From an uncultured Litoreibacter sp. (GTDB taxonomy: Bacteria > Pseudomonadota > Alphaproteobacteria > Rhodobacterales > Rhodobacteraceae): DNA of 64,000 nt. Numbering within the stretch: position 1 is the stretch's first letter; every line of letters begins with the position of its first letter. Of the stretch, positions 9,827-55,465 are shown piece by piece. A program made the position numbers and the translations under genes. The notes below the pieces were generated by a model. That model was not told the origin of the DNA and made no database searches. It saw only the letters and a list, made by a program, of their open reading frames with translations. The DNA lies in contig CANMWQ010000002.1 in assembly GCA_947501685.1 (NCBI GenBank), positions 434,001 to 498,000 of the forward strand. The letters are read 5' to 3'.

Positions 9827-11029
9827 TCAGGTCACGGCGTTGCGCTTCCTGAATTCCGGCGTGTCCCAAAGCCTGTCCCGCATGACCTTTGCCAAAATAT
9901 CGACCGCCTTCAGCACATCATCCTCGTCCAGATAAAGCGGTGTGAAGCCAAAGCGCATGATGTTGGGCGCGCGGAAATCGCCGATGACGTGATGCGCAAT
10001 CAGCGCCTGCATCGCGGCATAACCTTCGGTAAAGGCAAAGGACACCTGGCTGCCGCGCATCGCCGCGTTGCGGGGACTGACAAGGGTGAGGTCTGGGCAT
10101 TGCGCCTCGACCTGTTTGATAAACAGCTCTGACAGGCGAATGCTGGCCCCGCGCAGCGCTTGCATGTCGATGCCGTCCCAGACCGACAGAGCGTGTTCAA
10201 GGGCCGTCATCTGCATCACGGGCGGCGTTCCAACGCGCATCCGGGCAATGCCGGGGGCAGGGCGATAGTCAGGCTCAAACGCAAAGGGCGCGTCATGGCC
10301 AAGCCAGCCTGCGAGCGCGGGTTGCATGATTTCGGCCACGTCATCGCGGGCATAGATAAACGCAGGCGCGCCCGGCCCGCCATTGAGGTATTTATAGGTG
10401 CAGCCAACGGCAAATTCGCAATTTGATCCCGCCAGATCGACCGGCACCGCGCCCGCGCTATGGGCCAAATCCCACAGCATAACGGCACCGGCCTGCTGGA
10501 CGGCTTGGGTGACCGCATTCATGTCGTGCATCCGGCCCGTGCGGTAATCCACCTGCGTGATCATCACGACGGCGACGGTGTCATCCATCGCGCCTGCCAC
10601 CTCTTCGGGGTCAACGACGCGCAGCTCGTACCCTTGGCCAAGTTGCTGAACAAGCCCCTGCGCCATGTAAAGGTCAGACGGAAAGTTGCCATTATCCGAC
10701 AGGATCACCCGGCGGTCAGGGCGCATTTTCAGCGCGGCTGACAGGGCCTGATAAACCTTGACGGAGAGCGTATCGCCCATGGTCACGCTGCCCTCGGGCG
10801 CGCCGATCAAGCGGGCCACCATATTGCCGACGCGGGCGGGCTGATCCATCCAGCCGTCCTTGTTCCAGCCGGTGATCAGGTGATCGCCCCATTCATCCTC
10901 AACCATCTGGCCAAGCCGCGCGGTGGTGCCCTTTGGCAATGGGCCAAGCGAGTTGCCGTCCAGATAGATCATCCCCTCCGGCAGGATGAAATGGTCCTTG
11001 ATGGGCAAAGTACGCGTCGTGTTTTTCAT
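9827..11029 (-). CDS. kynU: kynureninase
   Basis: PLP enzyme of 400 aa that splits kynurenine to anthranilate and alanine (also 3-hydroxykynurenine to 3-hydroxyanthranilate). The PLP lysine lies in [13 protein letters not shown] (Lys213), and the ring-nitrogen Asp in [10 protein letters not shown] (Asp187). The motif [10 protein letters not shown] near residue 25 is typical. The start at 11029 is preferred over the longer form at 11050: AGAGGT lies just upstream and the ATG overlaps the kynA stop (ATGA). It faces the RidA/transport operon end to end, with a 52-bp gap in which I see no terminator. Confident assignment. Confidence 0.95.
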
Positions 11030-11856
11030 AGCTGACCTCTGAGGTTCCAAAGCTCGGGGAAGAGTTCCACTTCGAGCATTTTGCGCAAATATTTGACACC
11101 GGATGTGCCGCCCGTGCCGCGTTTGAAGCCGATGATCCGCTCAACCGTGGTCACATGATTGAACCGCCAACGGCGGAAATAATCCTCGATATCGACCAGT
11201 TTCTCGGCCAATTCGTAAAGCGTCCAATACTGCTCCGGGGCTTCATAGACTTTCGTCCAGGCATTCATCACAGCGTCATTGGCCTGATGCGGCTGATCCA
11301 GGCGGTAGACCTCGGGCGCAAACTCCAGATCAAGATGGCCCGCTAGCTGGTCAATGGCCACATGATACATGGATTTCTGCCCCAGCTCTTGGGTCAGCAT
11401 GTGGTGCAGTTCGGGGCGGTGTTCGTGGACCTTCAACATCGCCAGGTTGCGGTTGCCAAGGATGAACTCGATCAGGCGGTATTGATGCGACTGAAACCCG
11501 GATGACTTGCCCAGATCCTCGCGAAAGGCCGTGTATTCGCTTGGCGTCATCGTCCGCAGAACATCCCACGCGTTGTTGAGCTGCTCAAAGATACGGGCCA
11601 CGCGGGTCAGCATCTTGAAGACCGGGGGGAAGTTGCCCTTTGCCAGCTCTGTCCGCGCGACCGAGACCTCGTGCAAGGCCAGCCGCATCCACAGCTCGGA
11701 GGTTTGGTGCTGGATGATGAACAGCATTTCGTCATGGGCGTCAGATTGTCGGTTTTGCGCGCCCAGAATGGGGTCAAGCGCAAGGTAGTCGATATAGGAC
11801 ATGTCCTTGTCAAAGGACATCTGCGCCCCTTCTTTCGACGGGTCATAGGCGGTCAT
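11026..11856 (-). CDS. kynA: tryptophan 2,3-dioxygenase
   Basis: Heme dioxygenase of 276 aa (family about 280) that opens the indole ring of L-tryptophan to N-formylkynurenine. Visible signatures are [26 protein letters not shown] and the C-terminal heme-His region [19 protein letters not shown]. The start at 11856 overlaps the gntR stop (ATGA). Met13 at 11820 has a better ribosome site (AGAAGG) and is a fair alternative. It is first enzyme of the kynurenine pathway and is co-transcribed with kynU. The kynurenine formamidase that normally sits between them is not in this operon. Confidence 0.96.
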
Positions 11857-12626
11857 GACAGGGCCTTTTGTGTTTGGGTTTGAAGGGTTGTCGCCACCAC
11901 TGTCTCGGCCGGGATCAAGCAGCCCAGCTCCTGAAACGCGCAGATCGACAGATTGACATGCTGTTCAAACACCGTCCGTGCGCGGGCTGCGTCACGCGAG
12001 AGCACGACCTCGTAAAGGTCTTGATGCGGGTCGGTCGCCATTGCTTTGGCATAGATATCGGCCACGGCAGGGGCGTTGTCGGGGTGGCTTTCGAACAGAT
12101 CGCGCAGCCCGATCTGGATAAACAGTTGATAGCGGCCCAGTTGGTCGGCCAGTTGGCGCTGGAAATGTTGCAGCCACGACGCCTCTGCCGCACTGATCAG
12201 CGCCGCGTGAAAGGCGCTATGGCGCCGGTTCCACAGATCAATATCGCCCTGCGTGCCGGTCACAGACATCGCAGGTGTGCTGGAAAGCTGGTGAAACGCC
12301 CCAATAACGCGCGCCTCCCACGCATCATCCCCGCGCGCGACGGAGCGTTGGAACAACGTGCCCTCAATCGCGCTGCGACTATGTTCAAGATCAAGCAGCT
12401 CGCTGAAAGAGATACCGGCGACGCGAAACCCTTTGTTATGCGTGATGGCGACCAGCTTTTCCGTGCTGAGACGGTTGAGACATTCGCGGATCGGCGTCAC
12501 CCCAACCCCGTAACGCTCAGCCATAGCGGGCAGGCGCAGGGGGCTATCGGGCGCGAGGCTTAACGACAAGATATCGCCCCGCATCTGCGTATAGAGCGCG
12601 TCCGATTTTGATTGGAGTCTGTCCAT
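11853..12626 (-). CDS. GntR family transcriptional regulator, FadR/FCD type, probably of the kyn operon
   Basis: This 257-aa protein has an N-terminal winged helix (residues 10-75, with [22 protein letters not shown]) and a C-terminal all-helical FCD ligand domain ([16 protein letters not shown] onward). FCD regulators bind organic acids or amino acids and usually repress catabolic operons. It is the first gene of the gntR-kynA-kynU unit, overlapping kynA by 4 bp, so self-regulation together with kynAU is likely. A perfect palindrome 49 bp upstream of its start is the candidate operator. Effector (kynurenine, tryptophan or anthranilate) is unknown. Confidence 0.9.
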
Positions 12627-12802: not shown

Positions 12803-14491
12803 CTAGCACAAATCCAACACCCGGTCGCGGTCCAGCAATCTGTTTTGCCGCATCAGCGAGACAGGGTAGGCGGGGTCATTGGCCAGCCGGTCGGGGGAGA
12901 AATCGGGTTCCAGCCGGACCAGATGCTCCACCTTCTTGGAGGCTTTCTCCAGCTCGTTCTTGGTGGCATAAAGCGCGATGAGATAGCGCAGCGGCGGCTT
13001 GAAATTCGGGGCCAGCGCGACGCAGCGTTCGGCCAAGGTGATCGCCTCCTCAATGCGGCCCGTAACCGCCGCCGACAACGCGCTTTGCAAATCCCACCAG
13101 AAGGAATGCTGCGAATGGGAGGCCAGCGCCCGCGCGTGTCTTGCATGATCATAGGCCTCATCAAGCTTGTCGGCATAGACCGCCGCCGCTGATCGCGCCC
13201 ACCATGCCAGCGGGTTGGCGATATTGGTACTTGTGCCCTGCTGCGCCAACATGCCCGCGCCCTCGACGTCGCGAGCAAGGATCAGCCGCGCATTGGCCAC
13301 CGCCGCCAGCACCACCGAATTGCACCGATCCATCTGGATCGCGTCGGTGGCCAGCTGCAAGCCTGTCTCTATCAGTTGCTCTTGGTCCACGGCGTGGCGC
13401 TCCACGAACTGGATCCCCTGCAGCTGCGCGCGCCACGCGAGAAACACAGCGCGATTGTCGCGCGCATAGGCGTCTTGCAGGTTCCGGTCGGCCTCCATCA
13501 CCCGCGCCTCGTCCATCGTGAACAGGTTCCGGATCGCCAAAAGCCCGAGCATCGTGGCATCACGTTTGGTGCGGTCACCGGTGTCTTTGACCATGATCGT
13601 CTCAAGGATTGCGTCGACCAGCTCGTTGCCGCTGCGCAGCACCTCAAGGTCGTTCAGGCAATCGAGCCCCGGCCCGTTGATGGTTTGATAGCCCGACCAG
13701 ATCAGCCGGTGGTCGTCGCGATTCTCTGCCGTCACCCGCAGCAGCATCTGGTCTTCACTGGTCTGGATCGCCCACACCCGCGCAATCAACATACCTTTCT
13801 TGGGGGCCTCTGGCGTCTTGGTCAGAACATCAATCGACACCTGCTCGCGCAATGTCCGTGCCACGCAATCGACAAAGAAGGTTTCCATCGCCGCCGCAAT
13901 CCCACCAGACGCGCCGCTGACTTCCAGCACAATCGCGCCACAGGGTGCTGTCTGCGCCGAGGTGCTGGGTGTCGGGAAAGGCAGATCACGCCGCGAGCGC
14001 TCAACCGTCAGCCAATCGTCAAATTGGCCGTCATGCGCGTCCATCCCTTCGAGAAACTCGCGAAACGGGTCGGAATTGTCGAGGACGAAGGCATCCGGGT
14101 CAAAACACAGCGCCTGACCGCGCGTTTGAAGCGCCTCGCGATACGGCCCAAGCCGTTTGCGAATACTGTACAGCGCTTGGCGCAAACTGTCTCCGGCCTG
14201 CTTCGCGCCGCGTGCACTCCACAAATGGGCTTGCAGCCAGGCCCGGCTGCGTTCGCCCGAAGGTTCCGTCACCAGCAAGGCCAGCAAAGCCTGCTCTTTC
14301 ACCGCGATGGGCGTCAAATCCGTGCCGTCAGCGGCGGTGACCTTGAACCGTCCATGCAGCCTGAAAGAGGCTGGCCGAAGCGCAGTTCCGGTCAATGGAT
14401 CGACCAATTCCCTCAAACCCGGTCCCCTCTGGCAGCTCAAATTACGGTGGACGCGCCTCGCATGACTGAAGAAATCGTAAACGAAAACCAT
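12803..14491 (-). CDS. BTAD/SARP-like winged-helix transcriptional regulator with helical-repeat C-terminus
   Basis: About 562 aa if it starts at ATG 14491; the ribosome site is weak and a longer GTG form to 14569 is open. Residues about 35-125 form an OmpR/SARP-type winged helix: KEQALLALLVTEPSGERSR, then HLWSARGAKQAGDSLRQAL and IRKRLG. The rest is a long helical region with TPR-like segments (ITLAERCVALAPNFKPPLRY and neighbours near the end), as in BTAD-domain regulators. There is no receiver domain. It is divergently placed to the PAP2/S8-peptidase unit across 144 bp and is its probable activator. Nothing links it to the kyn genes. What signal it senses is unknown. Confidence 0.75.
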   Translation of the reverse strand: MVFVYDFFSHARRVHRNLSCQRGPGLRELVDPLTGTALRPASFRLHGRFKVTAADGTDLTPIAVKEQALLALLVTEPSGERSRAWLQAHLWSARGAKQAGDSLRQALYSIRKRLGPYREALQTRGQALCFDPDAFVLDNSDPFREFLEGMDAHDGQFDDWLTVERSRRDLPFPTPSTSAQTAPCGAIVLEVSGASGGIAAAMETFFVDCVARTLREQVSIDVLTKTPEAPKKGMLIARVWAIQTSEDQMLLRVTAENRDDHRLIWSGYQTINGPGLDCLNDLEVLRSGNELVDAILETIMVKDTGDRTKRDATMLGLLAIRNLFTMDEARVMEADRNLQDAYARDNRAVFLAWRAQLQGIQFVERHAVDQEQLIETGLQLATDAIQMDRCNSVVLAAVANARLILARDVEGAGMLAQQGTSTNIANPLAWWARSAAAVYADKLDEAYDHARHARALASHSQHSFWWDLQSALSAAVTGRIEEAITLAERCVALAPNFKPPLRYLIALYATKNELEKASKKVEHLVRLEPDFSPDRLANDPAYPVSLMRQNRLLDRDRVLDLC

Positions 14492-14551
14492 CTCATTGGG
14501 GAGTCTGCGTGAATAATTCGTGAAAAACCTCCCGTGGCCACGGCCGGTAGA

Positions 14552-14557
14552 TTGACA
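14552..14557 (+). promoter_or_regulatory. possible -35 element of the PAP2/peptidase promoter
   Basis: TTGACA matches the sigma-70 -35 consensus exactly and lies 84 bp before the PAP2 start in the divergent gap 14492-14635. The -10 hexamer at the right distance is poor, which would fit a promoter that needs an activator such as the divergent regulator. Weak evidence alone. Confidence 0.3.
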
Positions 14558-14635
14558 GGGGCACAGCACAAATTGACCTTAGGGCAGGCGAACAATCGGG
14601 AACGTGTATCTGCGCACAGTGAGGGGAGAGAGTGA

Positions 14636-15859
14636 ATGACTGAATTCGGTGTAGGCCAAGGTGGCGGCCAAGGTGGCGGGCAGGGCGGAGGCCAAGGCGG
14701 CGGGCAAGGTGGAGGCCAAGGTGGCGGGCAGGGCGGAGGCCAAGGCGGCGGGCAAGGTGGTGGCCAAGGCGGCGGACAGGGCGGAGGCCAAGGTGGCGGA
14801 CAAGGCGGCGGACAGGGCGGAGGCCAAGGTGGTGGACAAGGTGGCGGCCAAGGTGGTGCACATGCAGGTGGGTCGAACTCTACGCTGCTCAACAACGCAT
14901 TGGCGATCCAGCACGACTCGGTTGTGGGCTATTGGGAAGGCACGCCAAACCTGCGGCCCCCGAATTTTGGAACACCGGGCGAGGACGCTGACCTGAGCTA
15001 CCTTCCGGGCGGGCTGAGGAACACGATCGTCGATTTTGAGCTGTCCCAGCTGTGCAAAATCGGCGGCTCCGATGGCAAGGCCAAGCTGAAGATCAACAGC
15101 ACGCGGGTCTTCACCCTGCGCCGCCCGGACCGGGCCTTCTTTGAAAGCCAGCTGACATGGCTACGCGCCTATTCCGATCTGCGCGGTGACCGGATTGCCG
15201 AGATCCATGTCCAGATGACCGATATTCTGTCCTTCTTTGGGGCGGCCTTTTATCTCAATGACGGCAGGCGCAAAGCCACATTAGAGCTGCTCTTTACCGT
15301 CTACCGGCTGGTCTACACTTTGGAGCAAACGGTCAAACATCTGTGCCGCTCCGCGCGGCCGATGGATTTCAGCAATGAGGTCCAGCCGATCATCCAGACC
15401 CCGGCGCATTCTGCGTTCCCGTCCGGCCACGCTACGGAAGCCTTTGTCTTCGCGACCGTGCTGCACCGTCTGACGCATGACCAATCCCCCAAAGAGGCGC
15501 TGACCCCGCCGCAAGTGCCGATGGCATTCCGCATCGCCAGCCGCATAGCGATCAACCGCACCGTGGCAGGCGTGCATTTCCCGGTCGACACTTTCGCGGG
15601 GGCCGCCCTTGGCTGCGCGATTGGCGACGCCGTCTATGCGCTGGCCAATGGCAAGACTGCCTCGGGCGGGTCGTTCAAACCGCAAACCGACGGCACGGTG
15701 GCGCCTGAGGATGATTTCTCCATCGCGGCGCTGCATGCGATCCTGGCCGACGCCCCTACAGAGCCGGGGGGCAGCGCCAAGAAACCGAAAGCGCCCATCT
15801 TTGCGGAGCTGTGGAAGAAGGCGGCGGCGGAATGGGGGGAGCTCAATGGCGGGGCGTAA
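14636..15859 (+). CDS. PAP2/vanadium-haloperoxidase-fold protein with N-terminal (GGGQ)16 repeat
   Basis: This 407-aa protein starts after a strong GAGGGGAGAG site. Residues 9-72 are sixteen GGGQ units. The rest is a PAP2 domain with all three signatures: K-x6-RP (KHLCRSARP), PSGH (AFPSGHATEAF) and R-x5-H-x3-D (NRTVAGVHFPVD). These are the phosphate/vanadate ligands and catalytic His pair shared by acid phosphatases and vanadium chloroperoxidases. No signal peptide and no clear membrane helices are seen, so a soluble enzyme is likely, closer to the haloperoxidase/soluble phosphatase side than to membrane lipid phosphatases. The end overlaps the S8 peptidase gene by 14 bp. The substrate is unknown. 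Confidence 0.85.
   Translation: MTEFGVGQGGGQGGGQGGGQGGGQGGGQGGGQGGGQGGGQGGGQGGGQGGGQGGGQGGGQGGGQGGGQGGGQGGAHAGGSNSTLLNNALAIQHDSVVGYWEGTPNLRPPNFGTPGEDADLSYLPGGLRNTIVDFELSQLCKIGGSDGKAKLKINSTRVFTLRRPDRAFFESQLTWLRAYSDLRGDRIAEIHVQMTDILSFFGAAFYLNDGRRKATLELLFTVYRLVYTLEQTVKHLCRSARPMDFSNEVQPIIQTPAHSAFPSGHATEAFVFATVLHRLTHDQSPKEALTPPQVPMAFRIASRIAINRTVAGVHFPVDTFAGAALGCAIGDAVYALANGKTASGGSFKPQTDGTVAPEDDFSIAALHAILADAPTEPGGSAKKPKAPIFAELWKKAAAEWGELNGGA
14660..14851 (+). repeat. 12-bp tandem repeat, 16 units, coding for GGGQ
   Basis: Sixteen in-frame 12-bp units of the form GGN-GGN-GGN-CAR. Higher-order copies are visible: units 2-5 and 6-9 differ by one base in 48, and units 10-12 and 13-15 by one base in 36. 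This shows recent block duplication, so unit number probably varies between strains. All changes seen are at third codon positions, so the protein repeat is kept intact. Confidence 0.95.
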
Positions 15860-17900
15860 ACCTAAAACGCAGTGGCGCGCGACGAAGGCGGAGGAGACGG
15901 GCGGCGAGGAGATCACCCTCACGCCCTACATGCATTGGTGGCTGGAACGCCAAGCGCCTGATCACCAGTCGCTTTCAGTGCGCTCGGCCCCCTGCGCCGC
16001 AGCGCTTTGCCCCGATGGGGAGGACGCGCCCATCAAAGAGGTCGTGCCGCTGCCCGATTTCGCGTGGAACCCGGTCGAAGGCCCCCACGGCCCGCCCACG
16101 GGCGCCGCCGCCAAGACCGACAAACCGCCCAAGGATGCGGTGATCATCGGGGTGATCGACGAGGGTATTGCGCTGGCGCATGAACGGGTGCGCCTTGTCA
16201 ACGGCCAACGCAGCCGGATCATCGCGGCGTGGCAGCAGGGTGGCCGCTTCGGCGGCCCGAATGGCAGCACCCCGCAAGACCTGCCTTTTGGCCACGAGCT
16301 CTACCAGTCCGACATCAACACGCTGATGGACACCCATAGCCATGCAGGCTGGCTGGATGAGGACGCCTTCAACCGCGCCGCTGGCCTAACCGAAATGCAT
16401 TACCCGATGGGGGCCAACGCGCTGGAGCGCGTCATTGCCCATGGCAGCCACGTGATGGACTTGGCGGCGGGTGAGGAGGCAAACGAGATAGAGCCCAAGC
16501 GGCTGGCCCGCATGCCCATCATCGCTGTAAACCTGCCCCGCCGCGAGACCATCGGCATGGCGGGCACCTTCCTGCAATTCTTCGTGGTCCACGCCATGCA
16601 GCGCATCGTCGACATGGCCGACGCGATGTGGGCGGAGCACTACCCGGACGACGCGCAGGGCGGCTTTCCCGTCGTGATCAACCTGTCCTTTGGCCAGCAT
16701 GCGGGGCCCAAGAATGGCACCTCGCAGATAGAGAAAGCCTTCGCGCGGCTGACCGCTGGGCGGGACAAAAAGAGCCCCGTCCGGTTGGTCATTCCGGCGG
16801 GCAATGGCAACCTGTCACGCGGCAACGCGATTGCCCCTATTGTCAAAGATACCCCGGTTCAGATACCTTGGCGGATGCTGCCAGAGGACCAGTCCTCCAA
16901 TTTCGTTGAGCTTTGGGTCGAGATGGACGGTGAGGTCGCCTCCGACACCCATCCGGTGATCGTCACGCTGACCGCGCCGAACGGGCAGGTGTTTGGGCCA
17001 TTTCAGGGCCAGGACGGGCATCACACGGATGTCTCCGGCGCGATGCGGATTTACGCCGAAAAACTGTCTCGCTTTGATGACGACCCGCCGCATGGCATCA
17101 AGAAAACGCTCTTCCGCTACGTGATCTGTGCGGCTCCGACGCTGGACTACCACACGCCGCTCGAAAGCTGCGAGGCGGGGCTGTGGCAGGTCGCCTGCGC
17201 ATGGGATGAAACCGGGTTCAAGACGTCTGAGCGGCCGGTGCTCTATGGCATGGTGCAGGTAGATCAGGCCGCGCAACCGGGCAGCTTGCGCAACAAGCGG
17301 TCCTTCTTCGACGCGAAAGCCTACCAGCTTTATGACCCCACCGGGCGGCGCGGCGACGCCTATGCCTATCCGGCGAAAGGCGACGCCTCTGATGATCTGG
17401 AGCCGGAGGCCACCATGGGCCCAGTGCAACGCAAAGGCACGCATAACGCGCTGGCAAGCGCGCCCGAGGTGATCGTCGTGGCAGGGCATCGCGAGTCCGA
17501 TGGCAGGCCCGCGGAGTATTCCGCCGCGACCTACGCGCCAGAGCGGCAGCGCTACGGCGCGGCCCCCACCGTCACGGCCAGCTTCCCAACGGAGCGCGCG
17601 CCCGCCCATTTCGGCCTGCGCGCCGCCGGGCCTCGCAGCGCCGCCACGATATTGTTGAGGGGCACCAGCTTCGCGGCGGGTCTGGTCACGCGGCACGTGG
17701 TCTCCGAGCTCTTGGCATGGCGCGACGCAAATTCGCCTGAGGGTGGCACGGATGGCTCGCCCCGCAGCATTGCTAAACAGGCCGCGGCCCATGAAGCGAC
17801 GACGCCCTACCAAGGCCCGGCGGCGGCAGGCAAAGTGGGGGCGGGACGCATGCCCTACACCACCTTGCGCCGGGTTGACCGGTTGACATGGGGGGCATAG
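15846..17900 (+). CDS. S8 family (subtilisin-fold) serine peptidase
   Basis: Protein of 684 aa with the full S8 catalytic set: Asp105 in GVIDEGIAL, His199 in IAHGSHVMD, oxyanion Asn320 in VIPAGNGN and Ser608 in RGTSFAAG. Motifs are slightly off consensus (DEG for D-T/S-G, HGSH for HGTH). There is no signal peptide and no I9 propeptide-like start, so it is probably cytoplasmic. The Asn-to-Ser distance is 288 residues against about 66 in subtilisin, so an extra domain of about 220 residues is inserted there. Start 15846 overlaps the PAP2 gene by 14 bp, which suggests translational coupling; an upstream extension lies wholly in PAP2 coding sequence. Target protein unknown. Confidence 0.88.
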   Translation: MAGRKPKTQWRATKAEETGGEEITLTPYMHWWLERQAPDHQSLSVRSAPCAAALCPDGEDAPIKEVVPLPDFAWNPVEGPHGPPTGAAAKTDKPPKDAVIIGVIDEGIALAHERVRLVNGQRSRIIAAWQQGGRFGGPNGSTPQDLPFGHELYQSDINTLMDTHSHAGWLDEDAFNRAAGLTEMHYPMGANALERVIAHGSHVMDLAAGEEANEIEPKRLARMPIIAVNLPRRETIGMAGTFLQFFVVHAMQRIVDMADAMWAEHYPDDAQGGFPVVINLSFGQHAGPKNGTSQIEKAFARLTAGRDKKSPVRLVIPAGNGNLSRGNAIAPIVKDTPVQIPWRMLPEDQSSNFVELWVEMDGEVASDTHPVIVTLTAPNGQVFGPFQGQDGHHTDVSGAMRIYAEKLSRFDDDPPHGIKKTLFRYVICAAPTLDYHTPLESCEAGLWQVACAWDETGFKTSERPVLYGMVQVDQAAQPGSLRNKRSFFDAKAYQLYDPTGRRGDAYAYPAKGDASDDLEPEATMGPVQRKGTHNALASAPEVIVVAGHRESDGRPAEYSAATYAPERQRYGAAPTVTASFPTERAPAHFGLRAAGPRSAATILLRGTSFAAGLVTRHVVSELLAWRDANSPEGGTDGSPRSIAKQAAAHEATTPYQGPAAAGKVGAGRMPYTTLRRVDRLTWGA

Positions 17901-53325: not shown

Positions 53326-53718
53326 TTACCTTCCGCGCCCAAGGCTGGTGCGCAAAATGCCCAGCGCGCTTTGATAGACGGTGACGGCGCGCGAATGCTG
53401 CCGCTCCGCATCAATGGATTTCAGCAGCTCGCCTTCCAGCGAAACTGAATTCCCGTTCGGCGCAATCTCAGAAGAGCGGTCAATCACCGGCGCAGGCATC
53501 ATCCCCATGCCGCTTGTCGCGATATGTCCGGGGCGCGGCACAAGGGCCGCCCGTGCCATCGGCAGGGCTTGCGCAGTGCTCTCACGGTCGGGCATTGTCA
53601 TGGCCCGAAAATTTGGGGTGTCGGCGTTGGCAATATTGCCCGCCACGACCGCCTGCTGGCTGGCCGCGTGCTGCGCCATCTTATGTGCTGCCTGAAACAG
53701 CTCGATAGATTTGAACAC
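53326..53718 (-). CDS. flgB: flagellar rod protein FlgB
   Basis: Protein of 130 aa. It starts at GTG 53718 (FKSIELFQAAHKMAQHAA), which is the family N-terminus and has GGAGA upstream; the longer open frame to 54048 is antisense to fliI. The rod signature is NIANADTPNFRAM and the C-terminus SRAVTVYQSALGILRTS. First gene of a long minus-strand operon, divergent from fliI across 88 bp. Confidence 0.92.
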   Translation of the reverse strand: MFKSIELFQAAHKMAQHAASQQAVVAGNIANADTPNFRAMTMPDRESTAQALPMARAALVPRPGHIATSGMGMMPAPVIDRSSEIAPNGNSVSLEGELLKSIDAERQHSRAVTVYQSALGILRTSLGRGR

Positions 53719-53741
53719 CGGGGCTTCTCCCTCGATTGCTT

Positions 53742-53756
53742 TCAACGAAGCCTTAA
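53742..53756. promoter_or_regulatory. CtrA-like box in the flgB/fliI divergent promoter
   Basis: TCAA-N7-TTAA, one mismatch from TTAA-N7-TTAA, in the 88-bp divergent gap, 24 bp from flgB and 51 bp from fliI. Confidence 0.5.
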
Positions 53757-53806
53757 GGGTGATTCCTTTAGAAACGGTAATCGACGCGACATTTTCAGGA
53801 CCGCCC

Positions 53807-55138
53807 ATGTATTCCAGCTTTGCCCCCCTCATCAGCGAGATGGAGGATATCTCCCCGCTCGAGCGCCGCGGCCATGTCACCGCCACCCATGGTGGGCTGA
53901 TCGATGTCAGCGGCCTGTCCAGCTTTGCGCGGGTCGGTGATTTGGTGGAGATGACAGGCCCCGATGGCCCCGCACCTGCCGAAATTCTGTCGCTCAGCGA
54001 CGGCATCGCACGCGTGCTCCCCGCCGCCGGGCCGCGCGGGACGGCCATCGGCGACGTGGTGCGCTACATAGGCGACGGTCATATCCGCCCCGATATGTCC
54101 TGGGTCGGCCGGGTGATTGACGCCTATGGCCGCCCGCTCGATGGCCGCCCCATGGCAAAAGGTCCCGACAAACGCAGCGTGCTCACCTCCCCGCCTGAGG
54201 CCACGTCCCGCCGCAGGCTCGGCGCGCGGGTGGAAACCGGGCTGGCCGCGTTCAACACGTTCCTGCCCATCGTGCGCGGGCAACGCATCGGGCTCTTTGC
54301 TGGCTCCGGCGTGGGCAAATCCACCTTGCTGGCCCAGCTGGCCCAATCCGTAGAGGCGGATTTCATTGTCATCGCCCTCATCGGCGAACGCGGCCGCGAG
54401 GTCCGTGAGTTTATCGAAGACACGCTTGGCGCAGACGGGCTCGCCCGCTCCGTCGTTGTGGCGGCCACGTCGGACCAGTCACCGGTCGCGCGTCGCCGCG
54501 CCTCCTGGACGGCCATGGCGGTGGCGGAATATTTACGCGATCAAGGCGGCCACGTTCTGTTTCTGGCCGATTCCGTCACGCGGTTTTGCGAAGCCCACCG
54601 CGAAATAGCCCTCAGCATCGGAGACCCCCCCGGCGCCCAAGGCTATCCCGCCTCCACCGCGCAACAGGTCATGAGCCTATGCGAACGCGCGGGCACCGGG
54701 CCACAGGACAAAGGCGACATCACCGCGATTTTCTCTGTGCTGGTCGCGGCCTCTGATATGGACGAACCCGTCGCCGACATGGTGCGCGGCGTCCTTGACG
54801 GCCACGTCGTCCTTGATCGCAGCATTGCTGAACGGGGCCGGTTTCCGGCCATCGACATCCTGCGCTCCGTCTCGCGCAGTTTCACCAAGGCCCACAACAC
54901 TGAGGCGCAAGAGATCATCTCAGCCGCCCGCGCCCAAATGTCGGTCTACGCCCAATCAGAACTGATGATCCAAGCCGGCCTTTATAAACCCGGCGCGGAT
55001 GCGGCCATAGACCAATCCATCCGCCTGCGGCCAAAACTGGAAAGCTTCCTCTCCGCCAGCGCCAAACCCAAAAATCCAAGCGGCGCGCATGATCTTGCGC
55101 GCCTGGCCGAAATCCTGACGGATGCGGTGCCAAAATAG
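53807..55138 (+). CDS. fliI: flagellum-specific export ATPase FliI
   Basis: ATPase of 443 aa with Walker A GLFAGSGVGKSTLL near 165, the catalytic-Glu region LIGERGREVREFI, Walker B VLFLADSVTRF and the FliI/SctN motif GDPPGAQGYPAS. ATG 53807 has AGGA upstream and fits family length; a longer frame to 53711 crosses the divergent flgB promoter. It energises substrate unloading for flagellar export. It stands alone as a plus-strand gene. Confidence 0.95.
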   Translation: MYSSFAPLISEMEDISPLERRGHVTATHGGLIDVSGLSSFARVGDLVEMTGPDGPAPAEILSLSDGIARVLPAAGPRGTAIGDVVRYIGDGHIRPDMSWVGRVIDAYGRPLDGRPMAKGPDKRSVLTSPPEATSRRRLGARVETGLAAFNTFLPIVRGQRIGLFAGSGVGKSTLLAQLAQSVEADFIVIALIGERGREVREFIEDTLGADGLARSVVVAATSDQSPVARRRASWTAMAVAEYLRDQGGHVLFLADSVTRFCEAHREIALSIGDPPGAQGYPASTAQQVMSLCERAGTGPQDKGDITAIFSVLVAASDMDEPVADMVRGVLDGHVVLDRSIAERGRFPAIDILRSVSRSFTKAHNTEAQEIISAARAQMSVYAQSELMIQAGLYKPGADAAIDQSIRLRPKLESFLSASAKPKNPSGAHDLARLAEILTDAVPK

Positions 55139-55465
55139 GTATGGGGGCAATGGATGAGACTTGGGCAATCCGCATCTCCAACGGAGCTGAGCGGGATGCA
55201 TCCCAGCCACGCAACCGCTTGGCGCGGACCGCGACCTGATCCCCAAACGCGGCCAAAGCCCCGTCGACAAAAGCACTGCTGACCGAACTCCAGTCGGCCA
55301 AAACCCCGTCTCCCAAAACCCCGTCTCCCAAAACGCCGTCTGCCAAAACGTCGTCTCCCAAAACACCGTCTGCGAAAATACCGTCCGCAAAAGACCCGTC
55401 GGGCAGAACCCAGCCGGCCAACACTCCAGCCGGCCAAGCCCTTTCGGACAGCCCCCATCACTCGT
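55139..55465. other. 327-bp intergenic region between convergent genes
   Basis: No credible gene is seen here. The stretch separates fliI from the convergent DUF1217 gene and is dominated by a 15-bp tandem repeat and decayed copies of it on both sides (about 55255-55450). Open frames on both strands exist only because the repeat length is divisible by three. Confidence 0.6.
55300..55404. repeat. 15-bp minisatellite, about seven units
   Basis: The consensus unit is AAAACCCCGTCTCCC. The first two copies are identical and later copies drift by 2-6 bases. Less regular 15- to 16-bp copies extend upstream to about 55255 and downstream to about 55435. Unit length divisible by 3 produces five-residue periodic peptides in every frame, for example FWETG-like units on the minus strand. 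Confidence 0.85.

Follow-up and report, generated by a model that had tools for sequence, protein, structure and literature searches.

The window analysed here, a stretch of 64,000 nucleotides from an uncultured Litoreibacter sp. (contig CANMWQ010000002.1, positions 434,001 to 498,000), harbors three adjacent genes encoding a regulator (REG), a PAP2-fold enzyme and an S8 subtilase, the second of which begins with an array of exact copies of a four-residue peptide. This array looks like a selected, protease-processed peptide tag in a widespread three-gene module. The gene of the PAP2-fold enzyme, supported by its open reading frame (ORF), Pfam and a structure model, lies on the plus strand (14636..15859) and encodes 407 residues. 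Its array (14654..14857, plus strand) comprises 17 exact copies in the GQGG register, or 16 in the GGGQ register, spelled with varied codons, and is predicted to be disordered, residues 1-75 of the structure model having a pLDDT below 50. The catalytic core follows (14858..15856, plus strand) with K234, R241, S263-G264-H265, R308, H314 and D318 (407-aa numbering), whose K, R, S, H, R, H and D form invariant alignment columns (48/48 aligned homologues; 39/48 for the G of SGH). These residues correspond to the motifs KX6RP, PSGH and RX5HX3D of the PAP2 superfamily, to which the protein also belongs according to Pfam (57.3 bits, cut-off 27.2).

The subtilase (15846..17900, plus strand) counts 684 residues from the ATG at 15846 and exhibits the D-H-S triad and the oxyanion N of the S8 family (D105, H199, S608 and N320), with a beta-rich insert located between N320 and S608. 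It scores 23.9 bits against Pfam Peptidase_S8 (cut-off 21.8). The TTG at 15609, given as its start in the ORF list, was discarded as an over-extended frame. The end of the PAP2 gene and the start of the S8 gene overlap by 14 bp in the sequence (15846..15859, plus strand). On the minus strand, the regulator (12803..14491) combines an N-terminal SARP/OmpR-type winged helix with C-terminal TPR-like repeats; its exact start is uncertain, the coding frame staying open up to 14569. Its homologues lie either divergent from the PAP2 gene or upstream of it. Inspection of the intergenic region between REG and PAP2 (14492..14635) revealed a Shine-Dalgarno-like AGGGGAGA at 14622-14629, ahead of the PAP2 start, and a scan of the same region with the sigma-70 consensus returned no site.

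An initial annotation of this DNA had placed the three genes exactly where they are, with their catalytic residues and an overlap of precisely 14 bp. It had described both enzymes as devoid of signal peptide, and by eye there is indeed no hydrophobic stretch at either N-terminus (a signal-peptide program was not applied). The GGGQ repeat was named in its title, though the role of this repeat as the main clue was overlooked. The term "BTAD regulator" is fair in kind, since NCBI names several homologues "SARP family transcriptional regulator" and the protein is of the winged-helix/TPR type; it does not hold for the domain itself, as the window protein has no Pfam match to BTAD and matches only the Trans_reg_C and TPR models, both below threshold.

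Conservation of the module and of its array

Homologues of the three proteins were searched in 295 genomes of the same family. Matches to the S8 subtilase were present in 59 of them, whereas the PAP2 core and the regulator matched in 121 and 132, respectively, two counts that include weak and probably unrelated proteins. When second fragments of a same S8 gene are left out, 65 of 72 S8 places have, among the matches listed, a PAP2 place of at least 60 bits no further than 3 kb away, compared to a chance expectation of about 0.2% per place, which rules out a chance neighbourhood. Conversely, among the 88 listed PAP2 places that remain when matches under 60 bits are left out, 66 have an S8 match nearby and 22 have none. 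Twenty of these 22 were fetched (a second place in genome G097 and that of G215 were left out), and an iterated profile recovered a diverged S8 in 17 of them; the three others are L045, L047 and L252, the last located at a contig end. A Pfam scan of ten third genes taken from loci L041-L060 similarly gave S8 as best family in nine, above the cut-off in four.

Including more loci, 169 PAP2 hits were reduced by identical C-termini to 160 distinct genes, the plasmid loci L265-L282 being counted apart, and 144 of the 160 have both REG and S8 within 3 kb. The 16 incomplete modules include two contig ends (L099, L252), four loci with a short S8 (L055-L058, two of them Pfam-confirmed) and five with an A4-type peptidase (L237, L238, L240, L241, L244). 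In the other five, no S8 is in reach (L045, L047, L087), REG is missing (L050) or a weak S8 match lies beyond REG (L239). The adjacency counts (65/72 and 144/160) thus support the proposal of the initial annotation that the three genes are one functional unit; the condition that it had set for a chance arrangement, homologues seldom adjacent in other genomes, is contradicted by these counts. The genes make up a single modular system, which is found on plasmids as well. Orientation is variable: among the 144 complete modules, 65 have REG on the opposite strand and S8 on the PAP2 strand, 42 have both REG and S8 opposite to PAP2, 36 have all genes on one strand and a single one has only S8 opposite. 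The 14-bp overlap is therefore not a general rule, and the fixed co-production that it was thought to imply fails in the 43 of 144 modules where S8 lies on the opposite strand.

The N-terminal array is nearly universal. A tandem peptide repeat of at least 12 residues was found in 125 of 129 PAP2 homologues of a first set, and an array of at least three copies and nine residues in 156 of the 160 distinct PAP2 proteins, where 92 different units were recognized (e.g., GGGQ, GQ, GRS, NSQ, NHQ, GTQ, SAY, FNS, GGF, TGW, EAV, TGV, AGV, WEN, SR, NR). PAP2 hits with a profile score below 100, which correspond to second PAP2-like proteins, stand outside these array counts. The unit is three residues long in 101 arrays, four in 43, two in 10, six in one and eight in one; it is mostly present in 4-21 near-exact copies without any spacer between them. 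The array usually begins shortly after the start codon, or 60-130 residues in for the short-S8 type. With a stricter rule of at least four exact copies and 12 residues, 117 of 122 PAP2 proteins qualified, versus a single one among 1087 further genes predicted in these loci and none among 123 S8 proteins, although these controls were searched over their whole length and PAP2 in its N-terminal part only. Two of 131 regulator ORFs also qualified (L041, L045); they are over-extended and cross the PAP2 array on the other strand, and their repeats are therefore taken as antisense readings.

Across 398 Pseudomonadota genomes, 19 have a PAP2 match of at least 130 bits, two of the 19 belonging to another class, and an array was present in all 18 whose DNA was inspected (G075 was left out). 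The module is carried, among others, by plasmids of Phaeobacter, Paracoccus, Pontibrevibacter, Roseibium, Bosea, Microvirga, Rhizobium and Sinorhizobium, as well as by Paraburkholderia phymatum and Caballeronia, which are betaproteobacteria. When genome contigs were scanned by pattern, 548 PAP2 relatives were counted, of which the best 80 were listed. Among plasmid loci, an array occurs in 11 of 12 from L265-L276, the PAP2 of L268 being in pieces and without array, and NK or NR arrays occur in five of L277-L282, L278 being a fragment without array.

A few loci deserve separate mention. In L274 (Phaeobacter inhibens M647), REG and S8 are in pieces and the PAP2 frame is open but shorter (359 aa), and in L268 (Parasedimentitalea marina) both PAP2 and S8 are in pieces; sequencing errors may account for such broken modules. 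The record of L129 is named Enemella evansiae, an actinobacterium, and its module, whose NSQ array resembles those found in Rhodobacterales, is probably a contamination.

Exchangeable partners of a putative phosphatase

The PAP2 protein was modelled with 259 of 407 residues at a pLDDT of at least 90. Structurally, its core matches class A acid phosphatases best (E 6.4e-6), ahead of the best haloperoxidase-type protein (E 1.2e-2), suggesting that the core enzyme is more likely a soluble phosphatase than an oxidase; the oxidase activity that had been envisaged is accordingly ranked lower. Class A enzymes such as PhoN, PhoC and that of E. blattae share the PAP2 active-site motifs, with only 14-19% identity to the window protein. 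They are exported and are not known to have an array or a protease partner.

The subtilase is well modelled (mean pLDDT 87). Among 45 aligned sequences, including three relatives found outside the module (L036, L039, L040), D is conserved in 44, H and N in 45 and S in 44, the one sequence without S being cut by a contig end. The clostridial Csp germination proteases are its best structural matches (4i0w CspB, E 1.1e-20; Foldseek alignment of about 590-630 columns), followed by Kex2, which is also a subtilase (E 3.2e-4). Csp proteases have pro-SleC as substrate, and this resemblance suggests a specific processing protease, albeit at 14% identity and with the difference that the Csp system is not known to comprise a PAP2 protein or an array.

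The protease is replaceable. In addition to the S8 of Csp/Kex2-like fold that most modules possess, a shorter S8 is present in four loci, and plasmids of Rhizobium type encode one of similar kind next to arrays of (NK)n or (NR)n. In L237, L238, L240, L241 and L244, the slot adjacent to PAP2 is taken by an A4/G1 glutamic peptidase unrelated to S8 (82.7 bits in L237, 97.0 in L238, 74.7 in L244 and 39.1 for a fragment in L240, Pfam cut-off 22.3; L241 by profile only), and the PAP2 protein of these loci still starts with an array, of AGN, TGN, NTG or TSN. That a protease without relation to S8 can occupy this slot next to a tail of the same type argues for a shared substrate, the most economical reading being that the protease serves the array-bearing protein.

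The output part of the regulator is replaceable as well: among 159 regulators, 139 have a winged helix, 16 a class III nucleotide cyclase, three both, and one is unclear. Cyclase-type regulators occur with S8 as well as with A4 proteases, and the TPR part is constant. SARP/AfsR-type regulators resemble REG by their winged helix and helical repeats and by the SARP labels of its homologues at NCBI; they differ in that the window protein lacks a BTAD match and that the winged helix may give way to a class III cyclase. Across modules, the PAP2 core, its array and the TPR repeats are thus constant, whereas protease and regulator output can be exchanged.

Other neighbours are more sporadic. The genes that come after the module of Rhizobium and Sinorhizobium encode an aKG-HExxH peptide beta-hydroxylase (for the Rhizobium copy tested, 72.2 bits with a cut-off of 40) and a ThiF-family protein, the ThiF-family models scoring below their own cut-offs. 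HEXXH enzymes of the aKG-HExxH kind are described as acting in pathways for ribosomally synthesized and post-translationally modified peptides (PMC12636437). A second, diverged PAP2-like protein lies beyond S8 in 22 of 169 loci (L041, L042, L046, L070-L072, L110, L129, L130, L133, L136, L142, L144-L146, L148, L150, L151, L158, L159, L245, L251) and also in L060. That of L110 matches vanadium bromoperoxidases at 1.6e-106, and both active-site motifs were present in 4 of 17 copies scanned (L046, L110, L245, L251). Fourteen of 169 loci encode an animal-type haem peroxidase in the vicinity of the module, including the query L281 (L281, L061, L082, L121, L068, L115, L100, L077, L056, L261, L049, L055, L230, L231). 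In the window, kynureninase-like and tryptophan 2,3-dioxygenase-like proteins of the kynurenine pathway, recognized by eye, are encoded at 9827-12626, and a 3-hydroxyanthranilate dioxygenase lies beside the module on a Phaeobacter plasmid (L032, 1820-2386); these associations may be due to chance. Far from the module, the window also contains a tandem repeat of about 15 bp (CCAAAACACCGTCTC) at 55293-55400, just 3' of an ORF (53711-55138) that by eye resembles a flagellar/secretion ATPase.

Selection on the array and its possible role

The codons of the array indicate what has been preserved. None of the 154 arrays with at least four copies has DNA-identical units, and peptide-identical units share on average 0.775 of their DNA, versus 0.784 expected from random synonymous codons of the same locus; 8% of arrays lie more than two standard deviations above this null and 10% below. 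In the 93 arrays with at least eight copies, adjacent units are less alike (0.732 identity) than units two to seven apart (0.772-0.789), and there is therefore no general trace of recent duplication; neighbouring units avoid repeating the same DNA. In NSQ arrays, serine codons of both families are mixed. Amino-acid deviations affect only 21 of 1482 units (pS 0.83, pN 0.016, pN/pS 0.019), in a count that considers units flanked by a perfect unit and thus favours a low pN. Synonymous change is saturated and amino-acid change rare, and hence selection maintains the peptide rather than the DNA. A role of the repeat in DNA or RNA is likewise disfavoured by codons that look random and by the avoidance of identity between adjacent units.

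A low-complexity tail that arose by replication slippage and persists neutrally, its lack of fold making it tolerable, would fit the shortness of the repeats and their variable copy number (five versus six in Phaeobacter, seven in L081 versus 17 in the window). The 48-bp period that makes the window array a partial exception points the same way, as do the 8% of arrays whose units resemble one another in DNA beyond the random-codon expectation (z >2). This explanation is highly improbable and was rejected in view of the lack of any array with DNA-identical units, the mixed serine codons, the lower identity of adjacent units, the pN/pS of 0.019 and the single qualifying gene among 1087 controls.

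The unit itself is inherited: it is shared by all 12 pairs at a PAP2 distance of 0.15-0.30, and the closest pair with different units (AGV and TGV) is at 0.31. Copy number changes faster than the unit, as the examples above illustrate. A compound array, (NAH)3(TAQ)4, at the start of the PAP2 protein of Paracoccus sp. AK26 (L273, 3650-4717) is perhaps a change of unit caught half way. Taken singly, regulator distance predicts unit sharing best (log-likelihood -343.3), before PAP2 (-349.2) and S8 (-361.1), in pairs that are not independent, which is a weak hint that the regulator reads the unit. If the protease were its sole reader, S8 distance should be the best predictor; since it is not, such a reading is unsupported.

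The sequence data show a conserved module, a nearly universal array whose peptide is under selection, and the replacement of both protease and sensor output; we infer from them that the array is the substrate of the protease. A TPR-containing sensor, whose output is a class III cyclase or a winged helix of SARP-like type, would control a soluble PAP2-fold phosphatase and a dedicated processing protease, the phosphatase bearing an unfolded tail with many exact copies of a short peptide, mostly of 2-4 residues. Upon a trigger, the protease would recognize and clip this tail. Clipping could free or activate the phosphatase, much as CspB activates pro-SleC by clipping, and could set free a short peptide, specific to the lineage, in many copies; speculatively, this peptide would be sensed by the TPR domain. 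That the protease clips the PAP2 tail, and that this switches the phosphatase, liberates a self-encoded peptide or does both, is in our estimation evenly balanced between right and wrong. The peptide beta-hydroxylase and the ThiF-family protein encoded after the module in Rhizobium and Sinorhizobium count in its favour. The use of an unrelated protease beside an array-bearing PAP2 fits better with a protease acting on PAP2 itself than with a phosphatase-protease pair acting on an outside target, as the "one target" of the initial annotation can be understood; the latter is not directly supported. A further step, in which the array would be a self-encoded multi-copy signal whose lineage-specific "word" is cut to di-, tri- or tetrapeptides and read by the TPR repeats that regulator and cyclase types have in common, appears rather unlikely.

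Several observations weigh against this clipping model. Array-bearing PAP2 proteins without S8 within 3 kb exist in L045, L047 and L087; in L087, S8 lies about 5.5 kb from PAP2 and a caspase-like gene, regarded as a chance neighbour, adjoins PAP2. No array of at least three copies and nine residues is present in L058, L074, L124 and L132. The chemistry of the units is so diverse (GGGQ, EAV, GRS, SR, TGW, GGA) that there is no common cleavage residue. A pseudo-substrate, i.e., a copy of the own unit in S8 or REG, was sought and not found beyond permutation. The nearest neighbour shares the unit in 62 of 139 cases by S8 versus 65 by PAP2 (the REG figure of 57 is unreliable, distances being missing), and S8 adds almost nothing in a three-way pairwise model, whose pairs are not independent. 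Neighbours that could modify a peptide are infrequent, the HExxH enzyme being found in 2 of 169 loci only, and no route for peptide secretion or uptake was seen, although none was looked for.

Two other functions of a selected array were considered. As a homotypic assembly tag, identical repeats would bind the PAP2 protein of the same module, but not that of another one, or a shared scaffold, and the protease would dismantle or prune the assembly. Such a tag requires copies that match one another and leaves the unit free to differ between lineages, and units such as GGF, GSF, SAY, NSY and GGY resemble sticky low-complexity repeats. The two units differ in all 15 inspected genomes with two modules (15/15), but this is weak evidence because with 92 existing units two modules differ by chance almost always. 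Charged units (SR, NR, NK, GRS, GKS, DAR, EAV) should moreover not self-assemble, and the array is unstructured in the model, even if a single-chain model cannot show assembly; overall, we find this tag doubtful. Alternatively, and among the roles in stress, conflict or development that the initial annotation had considered possible, in a conflict or anti-phage system the protease would activate a PAP2 effector damaging lipids or nucleotides, with the array as inhibitory pro-segment, by analogy to gasdermin-protease pairs. The patchy distribution, plasmid carriage, presence of two modules in some genomes, interchangeable protease and sensor, and broken copies in Phaeobacter M647 and Parasedimentitalea would all be in line with this scenario. 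It is nevertheless quite unlikely: the 141 flanking genes contain no recurrent PADLOC defence family and hence no sign of a defence island (17 families with one member each, no control set being scanned), the sole PADLOC match in the window is a weak IetS match of the S8 subtilase (E 0.017), and a viral collection gave only 13 weak, partial matches to PAP2, which does not support phage carriage. In M647, the PAP2 frame is open, if somewhat shortened, despite S8 and REG being in pieces.

An array that is near-exact within a protein, spelled differently between lineages and almost always encoded next to a TPR sensor and a protease gives a rare pointer, from sequence only, to a recognition code. 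Should it prove to be a tag or signal processed by the protease, marine and soil bacteria would possess a regulatory principle of a new kind, and if the signal reading is true, a Gram-negative peptide code built into an enzyme tail. The 92 natural unit variants are available for specificity testing, and N-terminal peptide arrays with saturated synonymous change provide a general search rule.

Comparison with known repeated-peptide systems

Each domain family of the module is known. To our knowledge, neither the way they are combined nor the near-universal array and how it evolves has been described, and no relevant description of the gene combination or of the repeats was found in open-licence papers. 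Close parallels are found among precursors of repeated peptides. The fungal Kex2-processed repeat proteins (KEPs) contain tandem short peptides that are highly diverse between species and are cut by Kex2 (PMC7329392). As in KEPs such as the alpha-factor and ustiloxin precursors, the module displays a tandem short peptide of lineage-diverse sequence. KEPs differ by a signal peptide for the endoplasmic reticulum and by units of at least 8 aa located between KR, KK, RK or RR sites, and fusion to an enzyme is not described in that source (PMC7329392). The arrays reported here do not conform to the KEP definition, as their units are mostly 2-4 aa long, have no spacer and are carried by a phosphatase without evident signal peptide; the parallel is one of working principle. 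Similarly, RRNPPA systems include propeptides with repeated peptides encoded beside a TPR regulator and matured by proteases (PMC11343458), and share with the module a TPR regulator adjoining a gene with repeated short peptides. The RRNPPA propeptides, as presented in that source, hold 1-4 copies and are secreted (PMC11343458), whereas the TPR protein of the module is of SARP or cyclase type and its repeat is carried by a 407-aa enzyme rather than by a small propeptide, which places it outside the RRNPPA family. KEPs and RRNPPA propeptides are nonetheless precedents for tandem peptides matured by proteases.

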